Positions 9,405 to 51,657 of a stretch of DNA of 64,000 nucleotides are shown here, one piece after another. Origin of the DNA: Actinokineospora spheciospongiae (lineage in GTDB: Bacteria > Actinomycetota > Actinomycetes > Mycobacteriales > Pseudonocardiaceae); the NCBI RefSeq assembly GCF_000564855.1, contig NZ_AYXG01000241.1:62001-126000 (forward strand). Reading direction: 5' to 3'. Under the pieces are notes generated by a model. That model searched no databases, was not told the origin of the DNA, and worked only from the letters and a program-made list of their open reading frames with translations. Both the position numbers and the translations under genes were made by a program. The first letter of the stretch is position 1; each line of letters begins with the position of its first letter.

Positions 9405-10049
9405 CTACCCGAGGCGGCGGCGGTCCGGGCGGTCGGTCCAGGTGAGCTTCCAGTGCCTGCCGATGACCAGCGGGCCGATGCGGGCCACGGTCGGGCGGCG
9501 GATGTTCAGGTTGCCCGCCTTGACCAGGCCCGTCACCACGAACCGGGTGCCGCCGCCGGTGGCCCGGCGGGCGCCGCGGTCGCTGACGGTGCCGCCGACG
9601 ACGGTGTCGACGTGCAGGTCGCACGCCGCCTCGTCGGGGACCACCAGCTCGACCGTGCCCATGGAGACGTCCACGTCCACGGTGACGACCGGGTCGGTGA
9701 TCCGGGCCTCGGTGAAGTCGAGCTCGACCGTGCCCGCGCGGTTGCGCACCGACAGGGCGCGCGGGACGTCCCACGCGCCGCGGCGGCGGACGGTCGACAT
9801 GGAGGCCCGGATCTCCACCGGTTTCGGCTCGGGCGCGGCCGGGGCCTCGGCGCTGACCAGGCCGGGGAGGTCCACCAGGACGGCGTTCAGCTCACCGCGG
9901 GTGCGGGCGGCCAGCGCGGTGTCGGCGCGGGCGGTGAAGTCGTCCAGGGACAGCAGGCCCACCCCGATCGCCTTCTGCAGCACGCCCACCACGTGCGTGC
10001 GCTCGGCGTCGGAGACTCGGAGTTCACGGGGGTCGATGGGCGTGGTCAC
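9405..10049 (-). CDS. DUF1707 domain protein with C-terminal adhesin-like/DUF2154-type domain
   Basis: 214 residues. The N-terminal DUF1707 (about residues 5-60) is clear from LRVSDAERTHVVGVLQKAIG, then GLLSLDDFTARADTALAART and GELNAVLVDLPG. The C-terminal half consists of short beta strands with aspartate and valine (VTVDVDVSMGTVELVVPD), the pattern found in the cell-wall-active-antibiotic-response family. These proteins are common in actinomycetes and often lie near two-component systems of cell-envelope stress, as here where a response regulator gene lies 9 bp upstream. Cytoplasmic, with no membrane helix. Molecular role unknown. Confidence 0.82.
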   Translation of the reverse strand: MTTPIDPRELRVSDAERTHVVGVLQKAIGVGLLSLDDFTARADTALAARTRGELNAVLVDLPGLVSAEAPAAPEPKPVEIRASMSTVRRRGAWDVPRALSVRNRAGTVELDFTEARITDPVVTVDVDVSMGTVELVVPDEAACDLHVDTVVGGTVSDRGARRATGGGTRFVVTGLVKAGNLNIRRPTVARIGPLVIGRHWKLTWTDRPDRRRLG

Positions 10050-10058
10050 ACGTCCACT

Positions 10059-10700
10059 TTACGGTGATCCGTCGAGGCCGTGTTCGATCGCGTACCTGGC
10101 CAGTTCCACCCGGTTGTGGAGCTGGAGCTTGCGCAGCGTCGACTGCACGTGGTTCTCCACCGTGCGGTGCGACAGCACGAGCCGGTCGGCGATCTGCCGG
10201 GCGGTGAGGCCCTTGGCCACCAGCCGCAGCACCTCCGTCTCCCGGTCGGTCAGCCTCGGCGGGGACGGTTCGGCGGCCATCCGGCGGTACTCGCCGAGGA
10301 CCAGCCCGGCCAGGCCCGGGGTGAACACCGCGTCGCCCGCGGCGGTGCGCTCGACCGCGTCCACCAGCTCCGCGGCGGAGGCCGACTTGACCAGGTAGCC
10401 CGAGGCGCCCGCCTTGACCGCCTGGAGCACGTCGTCGTGCTCGCCGCTGGCGGACAGGACCAGGACGCGGGTGGTGGGCAGCGACGCGGTGATCTCCCGG
10501 GTGGCGTCCGCGCCGGACTCGCTGCCCAGGTTGAGGTCCATCAGCACCACGTCCGGGCGCACCGCCGCGGCGATGCGGACCGCGGCGGCGGCGTCGCCCG
10601 CGGTGGCCCGCACGTCGAAACCGCGCTCGGCCAGGTCCCTGGCCACGCCGTCGCGCCACATCGGGTGGTCGTCGACCACCATGACCGAGATCGTTCTCAC
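10059..10700 (-). CDS. NarL/LuxR-type response regulator (MacR-like)
   Basis: 213 residues from a GTG at 10700; the longer open frame to 10832 would run into the kinase gene and lacks family similarity. The receiver domain (1-120) has the acidic pocket in VMVVDDHPMW, the phospho-acceptor Asp in VVLMDLNLGSE (about 56) and the conserved lysine in VKAGASGYLVKSAS. The C-terminal LuxR helix-turn-helix (about 150-210) reads LTDRETEVLRLVAKGLTARQ, then IADRLVLSHRTVENHVQS. It lies just downstream of its kinase gene (58-bp gap). In Streptomyces the related MacRS system is linked to envelope/developmental control; the inference here rests on the kinase type. Confidence 0.9.
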   Translation of the reverse strand: MRTISVMVVDDHPMWRDGVARDLAERGFDVRATAGDAAAAVRIAAAVRPDVVLMDLNLGSESGADATREITASLPTTRVLVLSASGEHDDVLQAVKAGASGYLVKSASAAELVDAVERTAAGDAVFTPGLAGLVLGEYRRMAAEPSPPRLTDRETEVLRLVAKGLTARQIADRLVLSHRTVENHVQSTLRKLQLHNRVELARYAIEHGLDGSP

Positions 10701-10758
10701 GTCCGGCTCCCCACCGCGTCCCGCTCGTCGCACACCAAGTCCCGCGTCAACCCGCCCG

Positions 10759-11880
10759 TCACCACGTCCTGGGCACCCGCAGCTCCCACTCCACACCCTG
10801 CCCCGGCGCGGTTTCCAGGGTGATGGTGCCACCCAGGTCGGCCACCCGGCCGCGGATCGACCGGGCCACCCCCATCCGCCCCTGCGCCGACGCCTCCGCC
10901 AACCGGCCCTCGGGAATCCCCACCCCGTCGTCGCGGACGCTGAGCACCACCGACGACCCCAGGTCCTCCAGCAGCACCCACGCCCTCGCCGACGGACCGG
11001 CGTGCCGCGCCACGTTCTCCAGCGCCTCCCGCACCAGGAACGACAGCTCCGAGGCCACCGACCCCGGCAGCGGCACCGGCGTCCCCGGCGCCGACACGTG
11101 CACCCGCTCGGTCGTCAACACCTGGAGCAGACCGCGCAGGTCCACCTCCCCGGAGGACGACTCCAGCGGCGCCGCCGACACCAGCGCGCGCAGCGCCACC
11201 TCCTGCCGACCGGCCAGCTCGCCCAGCTCCGCGGCCTCCCCGCCGACCTCCAGCCCGCGCTTGCGGACCCGGGCCAGCACCTGCAGCACGCTGTCGTGGA
11301 TGCCGCGGGCCAGCCGCTCCCGCTCCGCGGTCGCCGCCTCGATCCGCTCCGCCGCCGCCAGCCGCAGCGCCGACTGCCGCGACGTCGTCGCCGCCAGGCC
11401 CAGCACGAACCCGATGCCGACCAGCAGCACCATGTCCCGCAGCAGGTCGATGTCGACGAACCCGCGCACCGCGAAGTTGCACAGCGACACCACCAGCCCG
11501 AACGCGGTGCCGCCGAGCATCCCGGCCCGGATCGCGCCGAACGCCACCACGGCCGTCACCCACACCGTCGGCACCAGCGGCACCTCACCGGCGAGCTGGG
11601 CGGGCGTCAGCGCCCACCGCGACAGCGCCATCAGACCGCAGCAGACCGCGAGGTCGACGAGGGTGAACCACAGCCCGGCGCCGCGCCGCGGGTAGTACAG
11701 CCCGGTGGCGAGCGTCCACACCGCCATGCCGCCGACGACCGCCCACGCCAGCCAGGTCCGCGCGTACTCGCCGTGGTGCGCGGCCACGACCACCCCGGCG
11801 AAGCACAGCGTGATCACCCGCAGCAGCACCCCGGCCCGCCACAGCGGAGCGGCCGGGTCGCGGGGGACCCGGGCGGTCAC
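10759..11880 (-). CDS. MacS-like sensor histidine kinase (DUF5931 N-terminus, HisKA_3, HATPase)
   Basis: 373 residues from a GTG at 11880 that overlaps the upstream transporter stop (GTGA). The N-terminal half contains about five hydrophobic helices (VITLCFAGVVVAAHH, then AWAVVGGMAVWTLATG and others) like the DUF5931 sensor domain. The dimerisation box with the phospho-accepting His is ERLARGIHDSVLQVLARV (about residue 195), followed by a GHKL ATPase with LVREALENVARHAG (N box), VRDDGVGIPEG (G1) and RMGVARSIRGRV. It signals to the response regulator next to it. Being translationally coupled to an AI-2E family transporter is notable. The stimulus is unknown. Confidence 0.88.
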   Translation of the reverse strand: MTARVPRDPAAPLWRAGVLLRVITLCFAGVVVAAHHGEYARTWLAWAVVGGMAVWTLATGLYYPRRGAGLWFTLVDLAVCCGLMALSRWALTPAQLAGEVPLVPTVWVTAVVAFGAIRAGMLGGTAFGLVVSLCNFAVRGFVDIDLLRDMVLLVGIGFVLGLAATTSRQSALRLAAAERIEAATAERERLARGIHDSVLQVLARVRKRGLEVGGEAAELGELAGRQEVALRALVSAAPLESSSGEVDLRGLLQVLTTERVHVSAPGTPVPLPGSVASELSFLVREALENVARHAGPSARAWVLLEDLGSSVVLSVRDDGVGIPEGRLAEASAQGRMGVARSIRGRVADLGGTITLETAPGQGVEWELRVPRTW

Positions 11881-47613: not shown

Positions 47614-48924
47614 TCAGGCCGACAGCAGCCGACCGGTCACCTTCCCCGCCCGCTCCTGGGCCGCCCGCCGGTCCACCAGGACCGGTTCCCCCTCGGTGAC
47701 CACCGGGGCGCCCGCCACCCACACGTCCGTGACGCTGCGCGAACCGGCCGCCCACACCAGGGTCGAGAGCACCTGCTCGTCCGGCACGTCCAGGCCCGCC
47801 GCGAAGGCCGGGTCGTCGACGCCGACGTGCACCACGTCCGCCCAGCGGCCCGCTTCCAGGGCGCCGATGTCGGTGCGGTGCAGCGCGTCGGCGCCGCCGC
47901 GGGTGGCCAGTAGCAGCAGGTCGGCGGCCTTGACCACGGTCGAGTCCAGGGTGGCGACCCTGGCCAGCATCCCGGCGAGCCGCACGTCCTCCCACAGGTC
48001 GAGGTCGTCGTTGGAGGCGGGGCCGTCGGTGCCGATGCCGGTGGCGACGCCCGCGGCCCGCAGGTCGCGCAGGCGGGCGATGCCCGAGGCCAGCTTCATG
48101 TTGGAGCCGGGGCAGTGCGCCACGGACACGGAGTTCGCCGCGAACAGGGCGATGTCGGTGTCGGACAGGTGCACCGAGTGCGCTGCCAGGACGCGGCCGC
48201 CGTAGACGCCCGCCTGCTCGAGCAGCGCCGGGACCGAGCCGAACTCCTCGCGCTGCTTGACGTCCTCGGGCAGGGACTCGGCCACGTGGATCTGGACCAG
48301 CGCGCCGCGGGCGCGGGCCTCGGCGGCCACCTCGGTCAGCGCGGCGGGGGGCAGGGTGTACGCAGAGTGCGGGCCGTAGCCGACCTCGATCCGCTCCCCC
48401 GGGCCCGAGCGCAGCCCGTCGGCGTCGATCCAGGCGTTGACGCCCGCGAGCATCTTGCGCCAGTCCCAGCCGGGGACGTCCATCACCGCCGGGGCCAGCA
48501 CCGCCCGGGCGCCGGTGTCGAGGACCGCGCGGGCGACCTCGTCGGCGTGGAAGTACATCTCCGCGCTGGTGGTGACACCGGCGCGGAGCATCTCCACCGA
48601 GCCGAGCACCATGCCGTCGTAGACGTCGGACGGGGTGAGGCGGCCCTCGGCGGGCCAGATGACCTCGGTCAGCCAGCGCATCAGCGGCAGGTCGCCGCCC
48701 ATGCCGCGGAGCACGGTCATCGGGCTGTGCGCGTGCGCGTTGACCAGGCCCGGCAGCAGGATGCCGGTCAGCTCGCGGATCGGGCCGGGGTGCTCGGGCG
48801 CCGAGTGGAACGGGCCGCAGTGGACGATCCGGCCCGCGTCGTCGAGGTCGACGACGGCGTCTCGCAGCACGGTGCAGGCTGGGTCACACGGGAGGACGAC
48901 GGGGGCGCGCAGACGCAGACTCAT
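47614..48924 (-). CDS. Amidohydrolase, MTA/SAH deaminase-like
   Basis: 436 residues from the ATG at 48924. The TRZ/ATZ subgroup of the amidohydrolase superfamily: metal ligands in GLVNAHAHSPMTVLRGM (HxH), QIHVAES (His), LAAHSVHLSD (His) and GIGTDGPASNDDLDLW (Asp). The GDLPLMRWLTEVIWPAE loop is the one seen in 5'-methylthioadenosine/S-adenosylhomocysteine deaminases. It would hydrolyse the amine of an adenosine or guanine-type compound. The start is 19 bp behind the NOS-like gene, so both are probably on one transcript with trmB upstream. Substrate assignment is tentative. Confidence 0.88.
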   Translation of the reverse strand: MSLRLRAPVVLPCDPACTVLRDAVVDLDDAGRIVHCGPFHSAPEHPGPIRELTGILLPGLVNAHAHSPMTVLRGMGGDLPLMRWLTEVIWPAEGRLTPSDVYDGMVLGSVEMLRAGVTTSAEMYFHADEVARAVLDTGARAVLAPAVMDVPGWDWRKMLAGVNAWIDADGLRSGPGERIEVGYGPHSAYTLPPAALTEVAAEARARGALVQIHVAESLPEDVKQREEFGSVPALLEQAGVYGGRVLAAHSVHLSDTDIALFAANSVSVAHCPGSNMKLASGIARLRDLRAAGVATGIGTDGPASNDDLDLWEDVRLAGMLARVATLDSTVVKAADLLLLATRGGADALHRTDIGALEAGRWADVVHVGVDDPAFAAGLDVPDEQVLSTLVWAAGSRSVTDVWVAGAPVVTEGEPVLVDRRAAQERAGKVTGRLLSA

Positions 48925-48943
48925 GCACCCGGATGATGCCACG

Positions 48944-49966
48944 TCACCGCTGGCGGACCGGCGCCTGGCGCAGGAAGGCGGGGCCGCCGGTGGGCTCGAT
49001 GGCGGGCAGGTAGGCGTCCGCCGAGTGCTCGACGCTGACCCCGGCCCGGTCGAACGAGTGCAGCACCGCGCGGTTGAACTCCAGGCCCACCCGCTCGCGC
49101 CACAGCGTGCGGTCGCTGGAGGTGTCCAGGCCGAGCCGCTCGGCCACCCCCCGGCCCAGGCCGTACGCGGCGTCGTCGGCGAAGGACTCCTCGCCGATGC
49201 CGCGGGCCAGGTAGACGCCGTTGAACGGGGCGGACGGGTAGTCGATGCCGCCGATGTGCAGCCGCATGTTGCTGACCACCGGCACCGCGTGCCAGCGCAG
49301 CGCCAGCCCGGCGAACCAGGGCAGCTCCGGGTGCGCCAGCGGCACCTCCAGCACCGCCGCCCTGGGCACCTGGTGCAGCCGCACGCCTTCGTGGCCGGTC
49401 TCGACCACCAGCGGCAGCAGGTCGAACGGGCCCTGGTCGCCGGGGGACAGCCAGCCGAGCCTGCACACGGCGGTGGTGAAGTCGACGAACCGCCGGTCGC
49501 CGTGCACCCGGTCGCCGTCGCGGTACCCGGCGTAGCGCACGAGCTGGTCGTTGCGGATGCGCGGGCCCGGCCGCCACGGGGTGTCCGGGGCGAACACGCT
49601 GACCATGGGGCGGACCGTGCCGCCGCCGGTGGCCATCCGCAGGTGCCGCACGCACTCCTCGGCCACGTCCTCGGCGTCGCGCACCGACCGCAGGTCGCGC
49701 ACCAGCAGCCCGCGCCAGGGGACCCCGTCCGGGCACCAGCCGCTCTCGCGCAGCGCGATCCGGGCGCCGAAGGCCAGTTCGGCGGGGGTGTGCCGGTAGG
49801 TGCCGGTGGCGGCGATCTCGGCCCGGACCTTGGCCAGCCGGGTCTCCAGCTCGCCCGCGCGGGGCCGGGCGCCGTGGAACCGGCGCAGGAACCGCTCGGC
49901 GACGTCGAACAGCCCCGGCCGCCCCACAGCCGGGAGCAGACCTCGGTCGTCGCGCAGAGCGGTCAC
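48944..49966 (-). CDS. Divergent nitric-oxide-synthase oxygenase-fold protein
   Basis: 340 residues, the size of a bacterial NOS oxygenase. Family blocks in order: TGTYRHTPAELAFGARIAL (54-72), the heme-thiolate Cys78 in SGWCPDG, RNDQLVRYAGYRDGDRV (138-154), FDLLPLVVETGHEG (181-194), LALRWHAVPVVSNMRLHIGG (221-240), PSAPFNGVYLARGIG (244-258) and GLDTSSDRTLWRERV (279-293). Compared with canonical NOS (recalled), AWRN before the Cys is ALRE, so the Trp that supports the heme thiolate is Leu72, and the arginine-binding Glu in PFNGWYMGTEIG is Gly256. Heme binding seems preserved, NO synthesis from arginine doubtful. No reductase domain. Operon with an MTA/SAH-deaminase-like gene. Confidence 0.82.
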   Translation of the reverse strand: MTALRDDRGLLPAVGRPGLFDVAERFLRRFHGARPRAGELETRLAKVRAEIAATGTYRHTPAELAFGARIALRESGWCPDGVPWRGLLVRDLRSVRDAEDVAEECVRHLRMATGGGTVRPMVSVFAPDTPWRPGPRIRNDQLVRYAGYRDGDRVHGDRRFVDFTTAVCRLGWLSPGDQGPFDLLPLVVETGHEGVRLHQVPRAAVLEVPLAHPELPWFAGLALRWHAVPVVSNMRLHIGGIDYPSAPFNGVYLARGIGEESFADDAAYGLGRGVAERLGLDTSSDRTLWRERVGLEFNRAVLHSFDRAGVSVEHSADAYLPAIEPTGGPAFLRQAPVRQR

Positions 49967-50061
49967 TTAGGCTCTATCGGCCCGAATGGGCCCGTGCTGG
50001 AGTACTCGTATGGGTGGTTTTTTGGAATCTTCTACTACGGAGAGTCAGCGCTACCGGACGG

Positions 50062-50760
50062 TCACACTCGCTCGAACAGCAGATCACGGCTGATCCGGCC
50101 CTCCACCTCGGCCCGCGCCTCGAACTTCGTCAGCGGGCGCCAGTCCGGCCGCGGCGCCCACCCGTCGTACCGGTTGCGCAGCAGCGGCTCGGCGGAGAGC
50201 ACCTCCAGCATCTGCTCGGCGTAGTCCTCGACGTCCGTGGCGCAGTGCAGCACCCCGCCGGGGGCCAGCCGGGACGCGGCCAGGGCGACGAACCCGGCCT
50301 GCACCAGGCGGCGCTTGTGGTGCTTCTTCTTCGGCCACGGGTCCGGGAAGTAGATGCGCACGCCGTGCAGCGAGCCGGGGGTGATGTGCTCGCCGAGCAG
50401 CACCACCGCGTCCCCGCGCAGCAGCCGCAGGTTCCGCAGCTCCATCGCCTCCGCGCGCAGCATGAGCTGGGCCAGGCCGGGCTGGTAGACCTCGACCGCG
50501 AGGTAGTTCAGCTCCGGGGCGGCGGCGGCGAGCTGCGCGGTGGTCTCGCCCATGCCGGAGCCGATCTCCAGCAGCAGCGGCGCCGGTCGGCCGAACCAGG
50601 AGTCGGCGTCCAGCGGCCCGGGCGGCAGGTCGGGGACCTGCCTGCCCAACTCGCCCCAGCGCCGCTCCCAGGCCCGCGCCTGTCCGACGGTCATCCGCCC
50701 GCCGCGGTGCACGAAACTGACGACGCTGCGCTTGCGCGGCTCCTGGTCCGTCGGTGTCAC
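50062..50760 (-). CDS. trmB: tRNA (guanine-N7-)-methyltransferase
   Basis: 232 residues. SAM-binding motif LLLEIGSGMGETTAQLAAA, the family-specific VEVYQPGLAQLMLRAEAMEL, and the catalytic block YFPDPWPKKKHHKRRLVQAG are all present; the C-terminus reads RNRYDGWAPRPDWRPLTKFE. It methylates G46 in the variable loop of tRNAs. In M. tuberculosis trmB lies near pckA, as here. The gene follows a hypothetical gene by 27 bp and precedes the NOS-like gene by 95 bp. Confidence 0.94.
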   Translation of the reverse strand: MTPTDQEPRKRSVVSFVHRGGRMTVGQARAWERRWGELGRQVPDLPPGPLDADSWFGRPAPLLLEIGSGMGETTAQLAAAAPELNYLAVEVYQPGLAQLMLRAEAMELRNLRLLRGDAVVLLGEHITPGSLHGVRIYFPDPWPKKKHHKRRLVQAGFVALAASRLAPGGVLHCATDVEDYAEQMLEVLSAEPLLRNRYDGWAPRPDWRPLTKFEARAEVEGRISRDLLFERV

Positions 50761-50787: not shown

Positions 50788-51372
50788 TCAGGGTGCCAGG
50801 GACTCCAGCCGGGCCAGGTTCTTGCGCAGGTCGACCAGGCCGCCGACGGCGATCGGCGCGGGCGTCGGACCGGCGTGCACCGGCACGACGTCCAGCCAGC
50901 CGGGGTGCCGGTGGGTGTAGGCCAGCGTCGTGGGCATGCCCGGTTCGCTGAGCCTGCGCTCCGACGGCATGTACTCCCAGTAGCCGGTGTCGCCGTCCAC
51001 GCCCCACGGCACGAACACCCAGCCGGGGCGGGCGTCGAGCAGCTTGGCCGTGCGGTCCTCGACGGAGAACCCCTCGCGCCGCGAGGACAGGCCGCCCCCG
51101 TCGACCGCGCGGAGCCACCACGGCGCGGGCAGCTCGCTGTGCGGGGCGGCCAGGACCGCGGCCCGGAACAGCGCGAGGACCTGCGCCTCCGGTGCCCGGT
51201 GCACCCAGGCGCGGCGGGCCTCCGCCGGGACTCCCGCCGAAGTGGTGTCGGGCTGCTCGAGCGCCTCCGACCACTCCAGTTCGATCAGGGGCTCGACGAG
51301 CAGGCCGCGGTTCTGGCCGCGCTGCTCGGACGGCTGCCGCGTCGAGCGTGTGCCGGAATCAACCACCGTCAA
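50788..51372 (-). CDS. Conserved hypothetical protein upstream of trmB
   Basis: 194 residues from a TTG at 51372 (reading LTVVDSGTRST), which has GGAGGTGG in front; a GTG two codons later is possible, and the longer upstream frame to 51645 is not protein-like. Notable segments are LLVEPLIELEWSEALEQPDT, APWWLRAVDGGGLSSRREGF, RPGWVFVPWGVDGDTGYWEY and a C-terminal VPVHAGPTPAPIAVGGLVDL. Rich in Trp, with no signal peptide or membrane helix, so cytosolic. I do not recognise the family. Position before trmB suggests co-transcription. Confidence 0.65.
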   Translation of the reverse strand: MTVVDSGTRSTRQPSEQRGQNRGLLVEPLIELEWSEALEQPDTTSAGVPAEARRAWVHRAPEAQVLALFRAAVLAAPHSELPAPWWLRAVDGGGLSSRREGFSVEDRTAKLLDARPGWVFVPWGVDGDTGYWEYMPSERRLSEPGMPTTLAYTHRHPGWLDVVPVHAGPTPAPIAVGGLVDLRKNLARLESLAP

Positions 51373-51608
51373 GGTCCACCTCCAGGGCTCCGAGACGGGT
51401 TTCTCACGTCCATCTGACCCCGGGACGGCGAGCGGCGTCCGCAAGCTGTGGGCCGCCTCACAGGCTCTTAACGCGGTCTTAATCCGGATGGTCGATCCGG
51501 GAAACGCGGCAGCGGCGCGCGGGCGGAAATCGGCCTCCCGCAACAGGATCGGTTCAGTGTGATGTCCACTGCGGACTGCTCGCACCGCTCCCGGCGCCGC
51601 ACGCGCGC

Positions 51609-51643
51609 GGGCCCTGGGCACCCCCCGAAGGTGCCCAGGGCCC
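51609..51643 (-). terminator. Terminator hairpin after the ABC exporter operon (distal)
   Basis: GGGCCCTGGGCACC and GGTGCCCAGGGCCC form a perfect 14-bp stem with a seven-base loop, about 55-90 bp past the last permease stop. Confidence 0.75.
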
Positions 51644-51657
51644 ACCGCTCCCCGAGG

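Follow-up and report, generated by a model that had tools for sequence, protein, structure and literature searches.

Bacterial nitric oxide synthase (NOS) oxygenases (PF02898; 2flq) are the closest described relatives of the protein analysed here. Passages of one account of NOS describe a Trp that hydrogen-bonds the ligand Cys, a conserved Trp that stacks on the pterin, a pterin that supplies the second electron, and a requirement for dimerisation for activity in vitro (PMC9500659), and an excerpt of another describes Glu592 of rat nNOS as binding the guanidino group (PMC6120233). TxtD, RufN/IlaM, and PtnF appear in sections of a further source as NOSs of biosynthetic clusters, where they supply NO and some of them stand beside a P450 (PMC10831120). 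Like these, the gene studied here encodes an actinobacterial NOS homologue, but it lies in a conserved trmB neighborhood, outside any recognised biosynthetic cluster. Its nearest canonical relatives are actinobacterial NOSs such as those of Saccharopolyspora spinosa (L079) and Saccharothrix (L076), with 53 to 61% identity over the matched part. With bacterial NOS oxygenases it shares the fold, the order of blocks, the heme-ligand Cys, and much of the distal sheet, but it lacks the proximal Trp, the arginine-binding Glu, Arg260, and the C-terminal pterin block. Among the titles and abstracts listed by searches of PMC full texts, which mostly do not cover subscription papers, none dealt with such Trp-less NOS-like proteins.

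The gene lies on the minus strand at positions 48944..49966 of the window, by which we mean the whole 64,000-nucleotide stretch of Actinokineospora spheciospongiae DNA that was analysed; the original prediction had the interval right and gave no strand. The open reading frame (49966-48944) begins with GTG, a start backed by the conserved V/MTALRDD N terminus of its relatives, and encodes 340 amino acids. The proposal that the protein follows the NOS fold from end to end was borne out by profile, alignment, and structural model. The PF02898 NO_synthase profile matched with an E value of 3.3e-92 and 309.7 bits, covering only positions 5-301 of the 362 in the profile. Among solved structures, 2flq_A was the best match by sequence (E value, 1.4e-72) and aligned without a gap across both motifs; this entry carries the table name Nitric Oxide Synthase and is elsewhere labelled Bacillus subtilis NOS, and we take it to be the Geobacillus protein. 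An AlphaFold2 model built from 53 sequences reached a pLDDT of 89.6 and a pTM of 0.87, and Foldseek superimposed it on B. subtilis NOS with a TM score of 0.82 over 297 columns; among the Foldseek matches listed, all 50 were NOS. NCBIfam held no family for the window protein, and because it held none for the canonical L079 and L069 either, this absence is uninformative about the variant. A phage family search with the window protein also returned nothing.

The window protein was searched against overlapping genome samples from its family (297 genomes, 187 matched), order (397 genomes, 85 matched), class (394 genomes, 55 matched), and phylum (296 genomes, 7 matched), and a scan of genome contigs added further loci, with the 80 best kept out of 420 confirmed stretches. 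Outside the family, 93 genomes matched, of which 92 were fetched (all except G803, with an E value of 6e-4) and their aligning parts read, while inside the family mainly the best-scoring loci of the 187 matched genomes were read. Merging identical segments and dropping matches with fewer than about 180 aligned residues gave 208 distinct sequences. For a closer comparison we coined the following labels: class 1 for canonical sequences (n = 30); class 2 for Trp-less sequences that keep Glu or Asp (n = 31; Kutzneria, Saccharothrix, Lentzea, Saccharopolyspora, and others); g44 for Trp-less sequences with Thr for Glu (n = 2; L133 and L134); class 3 for sequences of the window's kind (n = 20; Actinokineospora, Actinophytocola, Labedaea, and Herbihabitans); and class 4 for Kibdelosporangium sequences with Tyr for Cys (n = 4).

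In the 2flq_A alignment, LRESGWCPDGVPW of the window protein lay under WRHSNRCIGRLFW, which set Leu72 at the position of the proximal Trp and Cys78 at that of the ligand Cys, and PFNGVYLARGIG lay under PFNGWYMGTEIG, with Gly256 at the Glu and Val251 at a Trp. The assignments of Leu72, Cys78, and Gly256 are as originally proposed, and this alignment contained no Trp or Glu conserved at a shifted position; the acids nearest Gly256 are Glu259 and Glu260, about one helical turn on, and a Trp (Trp77) immediately precedes Cys78. Trp72 was present in 30/30 canonical sequences versus 0/57 of the Trp-less line, including none of the 20 class 3 sequences, and class 2 had Leu (30/31) or Met (1/31) there. 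At position 256 all 30 canonical sequences had Glu and all 31 class 2 sequences had Glu (26) or Asp (5), versus 0/20 in class 3, 0/4 in class 4, and 0/2 in g44. A sequencing or chance effect was ruled out, since 20/20 class 3 sequences lacked the Trp and carried A, G, S, or T in place of the Glu. Both losses are thus real, but the idea that the Leu72/GWC context is coupled to loss of the Glu did not hold, because the Glu/Asp-keeping sister class shares Leu72/GWC. Arg260 was found in 30/30 canonical and 31/31 class 2 sequences versus 0/20 in class 3. Cys78 was kept in 20/20 class 3 and 31/31 class 2 sequences. The tripeptide WCP was invariant in class 3 (20/20), and CP was absent from 30/31 class 2 and 4/4 class 4 sequences; the Cys-Pro dipeptide is a heme site motif of heme-regulated proteins. 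Several canonical positions persisted in class 3, namely, Gln141 (19/20), Tyr252 (20/20), Asn249 (20/20), and the distal Ile/Val231, and Glu259 was invariant there (20/20).

The larger change, which the original account of the Trp and Glu losses had missed, is a deletion of the pterin block. The window protein lacks about 37 C-terminal residues, including this block (WSWIVPP...FHRYY); in canonical actinobacterial NOS the last matched helix is followed by the block WSWIVPPMSGS.TPVFHRYY. The canonical L079 aligned to 2flq through the pterin block and matched PF02898 at 9-360, whereas the window protein ends at profile position 301. The distance from Ser304 to the proline of RPxF was 62 to 63 residues in 30/30 canonical sequences, 32 to 33 in 31/31 class 2 sequences, 33 in 2/2 g44 sequences, and exactly 25 in 20/20 class 3 and 4/4 class 4 sequences. 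Thus, the block was deleted in 57/57 Trp-less sequences and present in 30/30 canonical ones. The deletion is internal, as class 2 sequences resume at the same RPxF, most of those shown having a further canonical-like stretch. A frameshift artefact was ruled out, because the class 2 frame continues past the deletion into RPxF and the 25-residue spacing recurs in 20/20 class 3 sequences. From NOS structures, the pterin-stacking Trp presumably sits inside the deleted block.

The same association was seen in the larger set. The Trp was present in 133 of the 208 distinct homologues, 127 of which also had the Cys, the Glu, and the WxW pterin motif, and 72 had L, V, or M instead; the Cys position was unreadable in the remaining three (L142, L215, and L258). 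WxW was found in 127/129 sequences with both Trp and Cys and was absent from 72/72 Trp-less sequences. L141 and L159 had Trp, Cys, and Glu, and WxW was not seen in the frame read, which ended early; some of the 127 from outside the family had an altered pterin block, such as WSWLNG. All 72 Trp-less sequences belonged to Pseudonocardiaceae, by classification or by record name, and 43 of them kept Glu or Asp while 29 had A, T, G, or S. Some records bore titles at odds with their content: L055 (titled Nocardia sp. NRRL S-836) is a Lentzea-like locus, and L072 and L078 (titled Rhodococcus rhodnii NRRL B-16535) are Kibdelosporangium-like loci. These records look mislabelled, and since their coordinates match G271 and G093, both of them Pseudonocardiaceae by classification, we took the titles as wrong. 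Separately, L135-L138 (G308, G321, G330, and G338; same order, family f13) are long-branched NOS homologues with Gly for the ligand Cys (VAWANADKGIGRL or VAWANADRGIGRL) that keep the Trp and the Glu and lack WxW, which reads as heme-ligand loss that took place independently in a different family.

Whether the homologues form a clade had been proposed as a test, and both trees recovered one. In a quick tree of 84 rows the Trp-less sequences formed one group of 47 rows (SH-aLRT, 99). In a careful tree of 79 rows and 262 columns, from which five long-branched rows, both motif regions, and the C terminus were left out, loss of the Trp was a single change at one Trp-less clade with support of 99/95. 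Within it, classes 3 and 4 together made up 23 rows at 100/98, and they also share the 25-residue spacing and an upstream element. The g44 pair joined classes 3 and 4 at only 60/72 in the careful tree, whereas the quick tree placed it within class 2, and with this unstable placement either one or two losses of the Glu are possible. The trees may be read as an order of losses in which the Trp and the pterin block went first, then the Glu, and then, in class 4, the Cys. In Actinokineospora, the window-type gene was the only NOS homologue found in 5/16 genomes, including the window's own, and a second NOS match was present in 11/16. The one second match that was read, L109, corresponds to the second place in G100 and is canonical, and the second matches of G045, G152, and G201 showed 55 to 59% identity.

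Classes 2 and 4 share different parts of this pattern with the window protein. Class 2 resembles it in occupying the same trmB locus in most genera, in having lost the Trp, and in having the same pterin-block deletion, but differs in keeping Glu or Asp and Arg260, in having Phe for Tyr252, and in having no bipartite upstream element. Class 4 has the same trmB-amidohydrolase locus, the 25-residue spacing, the upstream element, and no Glu, but has Tyr for Cys78 and, in the alignment, Arg for the distal Ile231. All four class 4 sequences had Gly229 and Arg231 in place of the Pro and Ile of NOS, with the register here uncertain because the alignment is one residue short in this part. The class 4 model still had the NOS fold (pLDDT, 90; Foldseek TM score to B. 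subtilis NOS, 0.88). In the class 4 loci (L078, L084, L087, and L093), the NOS-fold gene lies at about 10001-10912.

The 95-bp gap before the gene contains the block GTARTCGAG-N16/17-CCGATA-N8/9-GTG, present in the window as a promoter-like element, GTACTCCAG-N16-CCGATA, on the minus strand at 49975..50005, 8 nt before the GTG start. The element occurred in 24/24 class 3 and class 4 loci, 22 of them in strict form and two (L033 and L048) with one base changed; the -35-like part was strict in 23/24 (L033 has GCACTCCAG), and CCGATA was exact in 23/24 (L048 has ACGATA). The bipartite element was found in 0/35 loci of class 2, g44, and L098. CCGATA itself occurred in 8 of these 35, inside the coding start in all eight and also upstream in L064, and in 1/16 canonical loci. 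The strict bipartite pattern gave 49 matches on both strands of 5.01 Mb of fetched sequence, in which many loci are present twice, and every one of the 49 stood 8 or 9 nt ahead of this gene's GTGACNGC start; in the window's 7.5-Mb genome it occurred once. Its closeness to the start codon suggests that the gene may be transcribed as a leaderless message from this promoter-like element. The FliA/WhiG consensus is given in the portion of the source concerned as TAAA at -35 and GCCGATAA at -10 (PMC8325347). The CCGATA core resembles a flagellar/WhiG -10, and the full GCCGATAA was present in the four class 4 loci. A FliA/WhiG regulon was nevertheless rejected, since the -35 block is GTARTCGAG-like and not TAAA, the spacer is 16 to 17 nt, and the strict element occurs once in the window's genome. 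In the window's genome, one sigma factor of 12 matches was over the family cut-off. When two mismatches were allowed, 10 genomes gave 15 to 48 matches each versus 1 to 19 for a reversed control, with an excess in 10/10. The element may have a wider regulon, and it is our impression that these matches are GC rich and resemble coding sequence.

On the minus strand, the gene is followed at 47614..48942 by an amidohydrolase of 442 amino acids, nearest to the SAH/MTA-deaminase type, whose start lies 1 bp past the stop codon of the NOS-like gene. Upstream lie trmB, a conserved neighbor encoding tRNA (guanosine-46-N7)-methyltransferase (50062..50760, minus strand), and beyond it a conserved protein of unassigned family (50788..51645, minus strand) whose true start is probably further downstream; it matched no Pfam or NCBIfam family, and its own family was present at 39/51 loci compared. 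The trmB-amidohydrolase setting was common to most Trp-less loci. Kibdelosporangium and Actinocrispum carry class 2 genes at another locus, and the class 4 gene of Kibdelosporangium is at trmB. The amidohydrolase was rejected as a specific operon partner: an orthologue (E value of ≤1e-130) was present in 281/297 family genomes and any NOS match in only 187/297, so at least 94 genomes have the amidohydrolase and no NOS match. In five Actinokineospora genomes (G152, G211, G228, G236, and G244) it is not adjacent to the NOS-like gene and lies elsewhere in the genome. It is thus probably a neighbor and not a dedicated partner. A histidine kinase follows the NOS-like gene in 21/27 tabulated class 2 loci (L049-L058, L060-L068, L070, and L074; HisKA_3 was found in L060, the one scanned), and none lay within 2.6 kb in the tabulated class 3 and class 4 loci. 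The kinase was likewise rejected as a NOS-specific partner, because of eight control stretches in which no NOS-like gene is linked to trmB, seven (L182-L185 and L187-L189) had a kinase, a response regulator, and the amidohydrolase a few kilobases from trmB; in the eighth, L186, trmB directly precedes the amidohydrolase. In the two of these class 2 loci examined, L049 and L060, no response regulator separated the kinase from the amidohydrolase, and in L098 and L133 one stands next to the kinase. The neighborhood yielded no sensor or effector that would be a specific partner of the NOS-like gene, and the identified neighbors included no reductase, no ferredoxin, and no other electron donor, many of the neighboring open reading frames being unannotated. 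As the amidohydrolase also occurs in genomes with no NOS match, and kinase, regulator, and amidohydrolase also near trmB where no NOS-like gene is linked to it, the neighborhood does not name a function, nor does it favor any one of the originally proposed roles, namely, action on another substrate, NO/O2 chemistry, or heme sensing.

Selection on the gene was assessed by Nei-Gojobori dN/dS, for which only the comparison with neighboring genes counts, as synonymous sites are biased in these GC-rich genomes. Over mostly the same pairs, dN/dS was 0.03 to 0.45 for the NOS-like gene, 0.08 to 0.40 for trmB, and 0.07 to 0.36 for the amidohydrolase, and the Trp-less clade is under purifying selection comparable to that on trmB. 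Seven class 3 pairs gave 0.12 to 0.21 for the NOS-like gene. In the window's three-species subclade (three pairs), the NOS-like gene had 0.40 to 0.45 versus 0.28 to 0.36 for the amidohydrolase and 0.24 to 0.33 for trmB; these values are above those of the neighbors, so constraint may be weaker there. Three class 4 pairs gave 0.035, 0.121, and 0.034 versus 0.079, 0.131, and 0.118 for trmB in the same pairs. The reading frame ran open across the NOS domain in each of the 20 class 3 loci checked. Two apparent relics were seen: L142 (G023; trmB linked), with an open frame lacking the Cys region, and L143 (G013), with three short fragments only.

The protein is almost certainly not an arginine NOS, and the gene is best read as a member of a paralogous actinobacterial NOS line that would no longer be NOS. 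The sequences themselves show that this line lost the proximal Trp together with a block of 30 residues, the one presumed to hold the pterin-stacking Trp in NOS, and that the window's branch afterwards lost Arg260, the arginine Glu, and a further eight residues; this branch also has its own conserved upstream element. The NOS mitt fold would be retained, with the heme probably still on Cys78 in what is now an invariant Cys-Pro (WCP); arginine or tetrahydrofolate would not be held in the NOS manner, NO would not be made by the NOS cycle, and the dimer would be altered or absent. Such a protein would most likely work by binding, whether of a diatomic gas, of heme as such, or of a small molecule lodged in the vacated arginine pocket, in a regulatory or carrier role and from its own promoter. 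To the reading that the NOS fold has been repurposed, probably as a heme-binding protein through Cys-Pro, for ligand binding or sensing, we assign a probability of about 0.5. The case for binding is made mostly by excluding alternatives, and the persistent canonical residues point to some remaining NOS-like pocket. More tentatively, and at less than even odds, the stripped fold could serve to sense heme or a small molecule, with Cys-Pro as its ligand, and could in Kibdelosporangium have passed into a form that is either Tyr-ligated (catalase-like) or free of heme.

The chief competing reading is that of an oxygenase or peroxygenase of the heme-thiolate type acting on another substrate, in which the thiolate, free of the Trp hydrogen bond, would donate more in a P450-like manner and the emptied pocket would take a neutral or bulkier molecule. 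Conservation of Cys78 (20/20 in class 3 and 31/31 in class 2), the well-predicted fold, and the joint change of pocket residues 251, 254, 255, 256, and 260, as for a new substrate, are what it would lead one to see. However, the pterin block, which is tied to the second electron, is gone, no electron donor is among the identified neighbors, and class 4 is strongly conserved with Tyr for Cys and an aligned Arg231 (4/4). The tight maintenance of class 4 in spite of its Tyr ligand site is the strongest single sign in this respect and suggests that NOS-type thiolate chemistry may not be what selection protects, although class 4 could instead have switched to a Tyr-ligated heme and kept a chemistry; we consider such an oxygenase possible but rather unlikely. 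Class 4 would also suit a heme-free structural or protein-binding pseudoenzyme, as it lacks Cys78 and the distal Pro229/Ile231, is strongly selected, and has a predicted NOS fold, and the heme surroundings of class 3 are worn as well through the loss of Trp72, the WSW/HRYY block, and Trp251. Such a pseudoenzyme is improbable for class 3, where Cys78 is invariant and, as part of an equally invariant Cys-Pro, looks kept and not left over.

That the protein still makes NO from arginine by other means, with pterin unneeded and Glu259 acting for Glu256, is highly improbable. Gln141 and Tyr252 are kept, Glu259, which never varies in class 3, might in part stand in for Glu256, and the gene is the only NOS homologue found in 5/16 genomes of the genus, including the window's, but the three elements that define NOS are absent together, and 11/16 genomes have a second NOS match, canonical in the one case read (L109). 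Slow decay of a gene kept temporarily by its operon position is scarcely credible: although the relics L142 and L143 occur in the family and the dN/dS of the window's subclade is 0.40 to 0.45, the domain is open and the upstream element present in 20/20 class 3 loci, and the seven other class 3 pairs, at 0.12 to 0.21, resemble trmB.

NOS is commonly regarded as a single chemistry acting on a single substrate. The bacterial family described here shows living stages in which the Trp and pterin block, the Glu, and the Cys have been lost, all of them under selection, so that the order in which NOS chemistry is dismantled while a useful protein is kept becomes testable. If the sensor reading is true, these stages would form a stepwise natural series from NOS to a non-synthase. 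Naming every PF02898 protein NOS would probably misassign NO production to this line.
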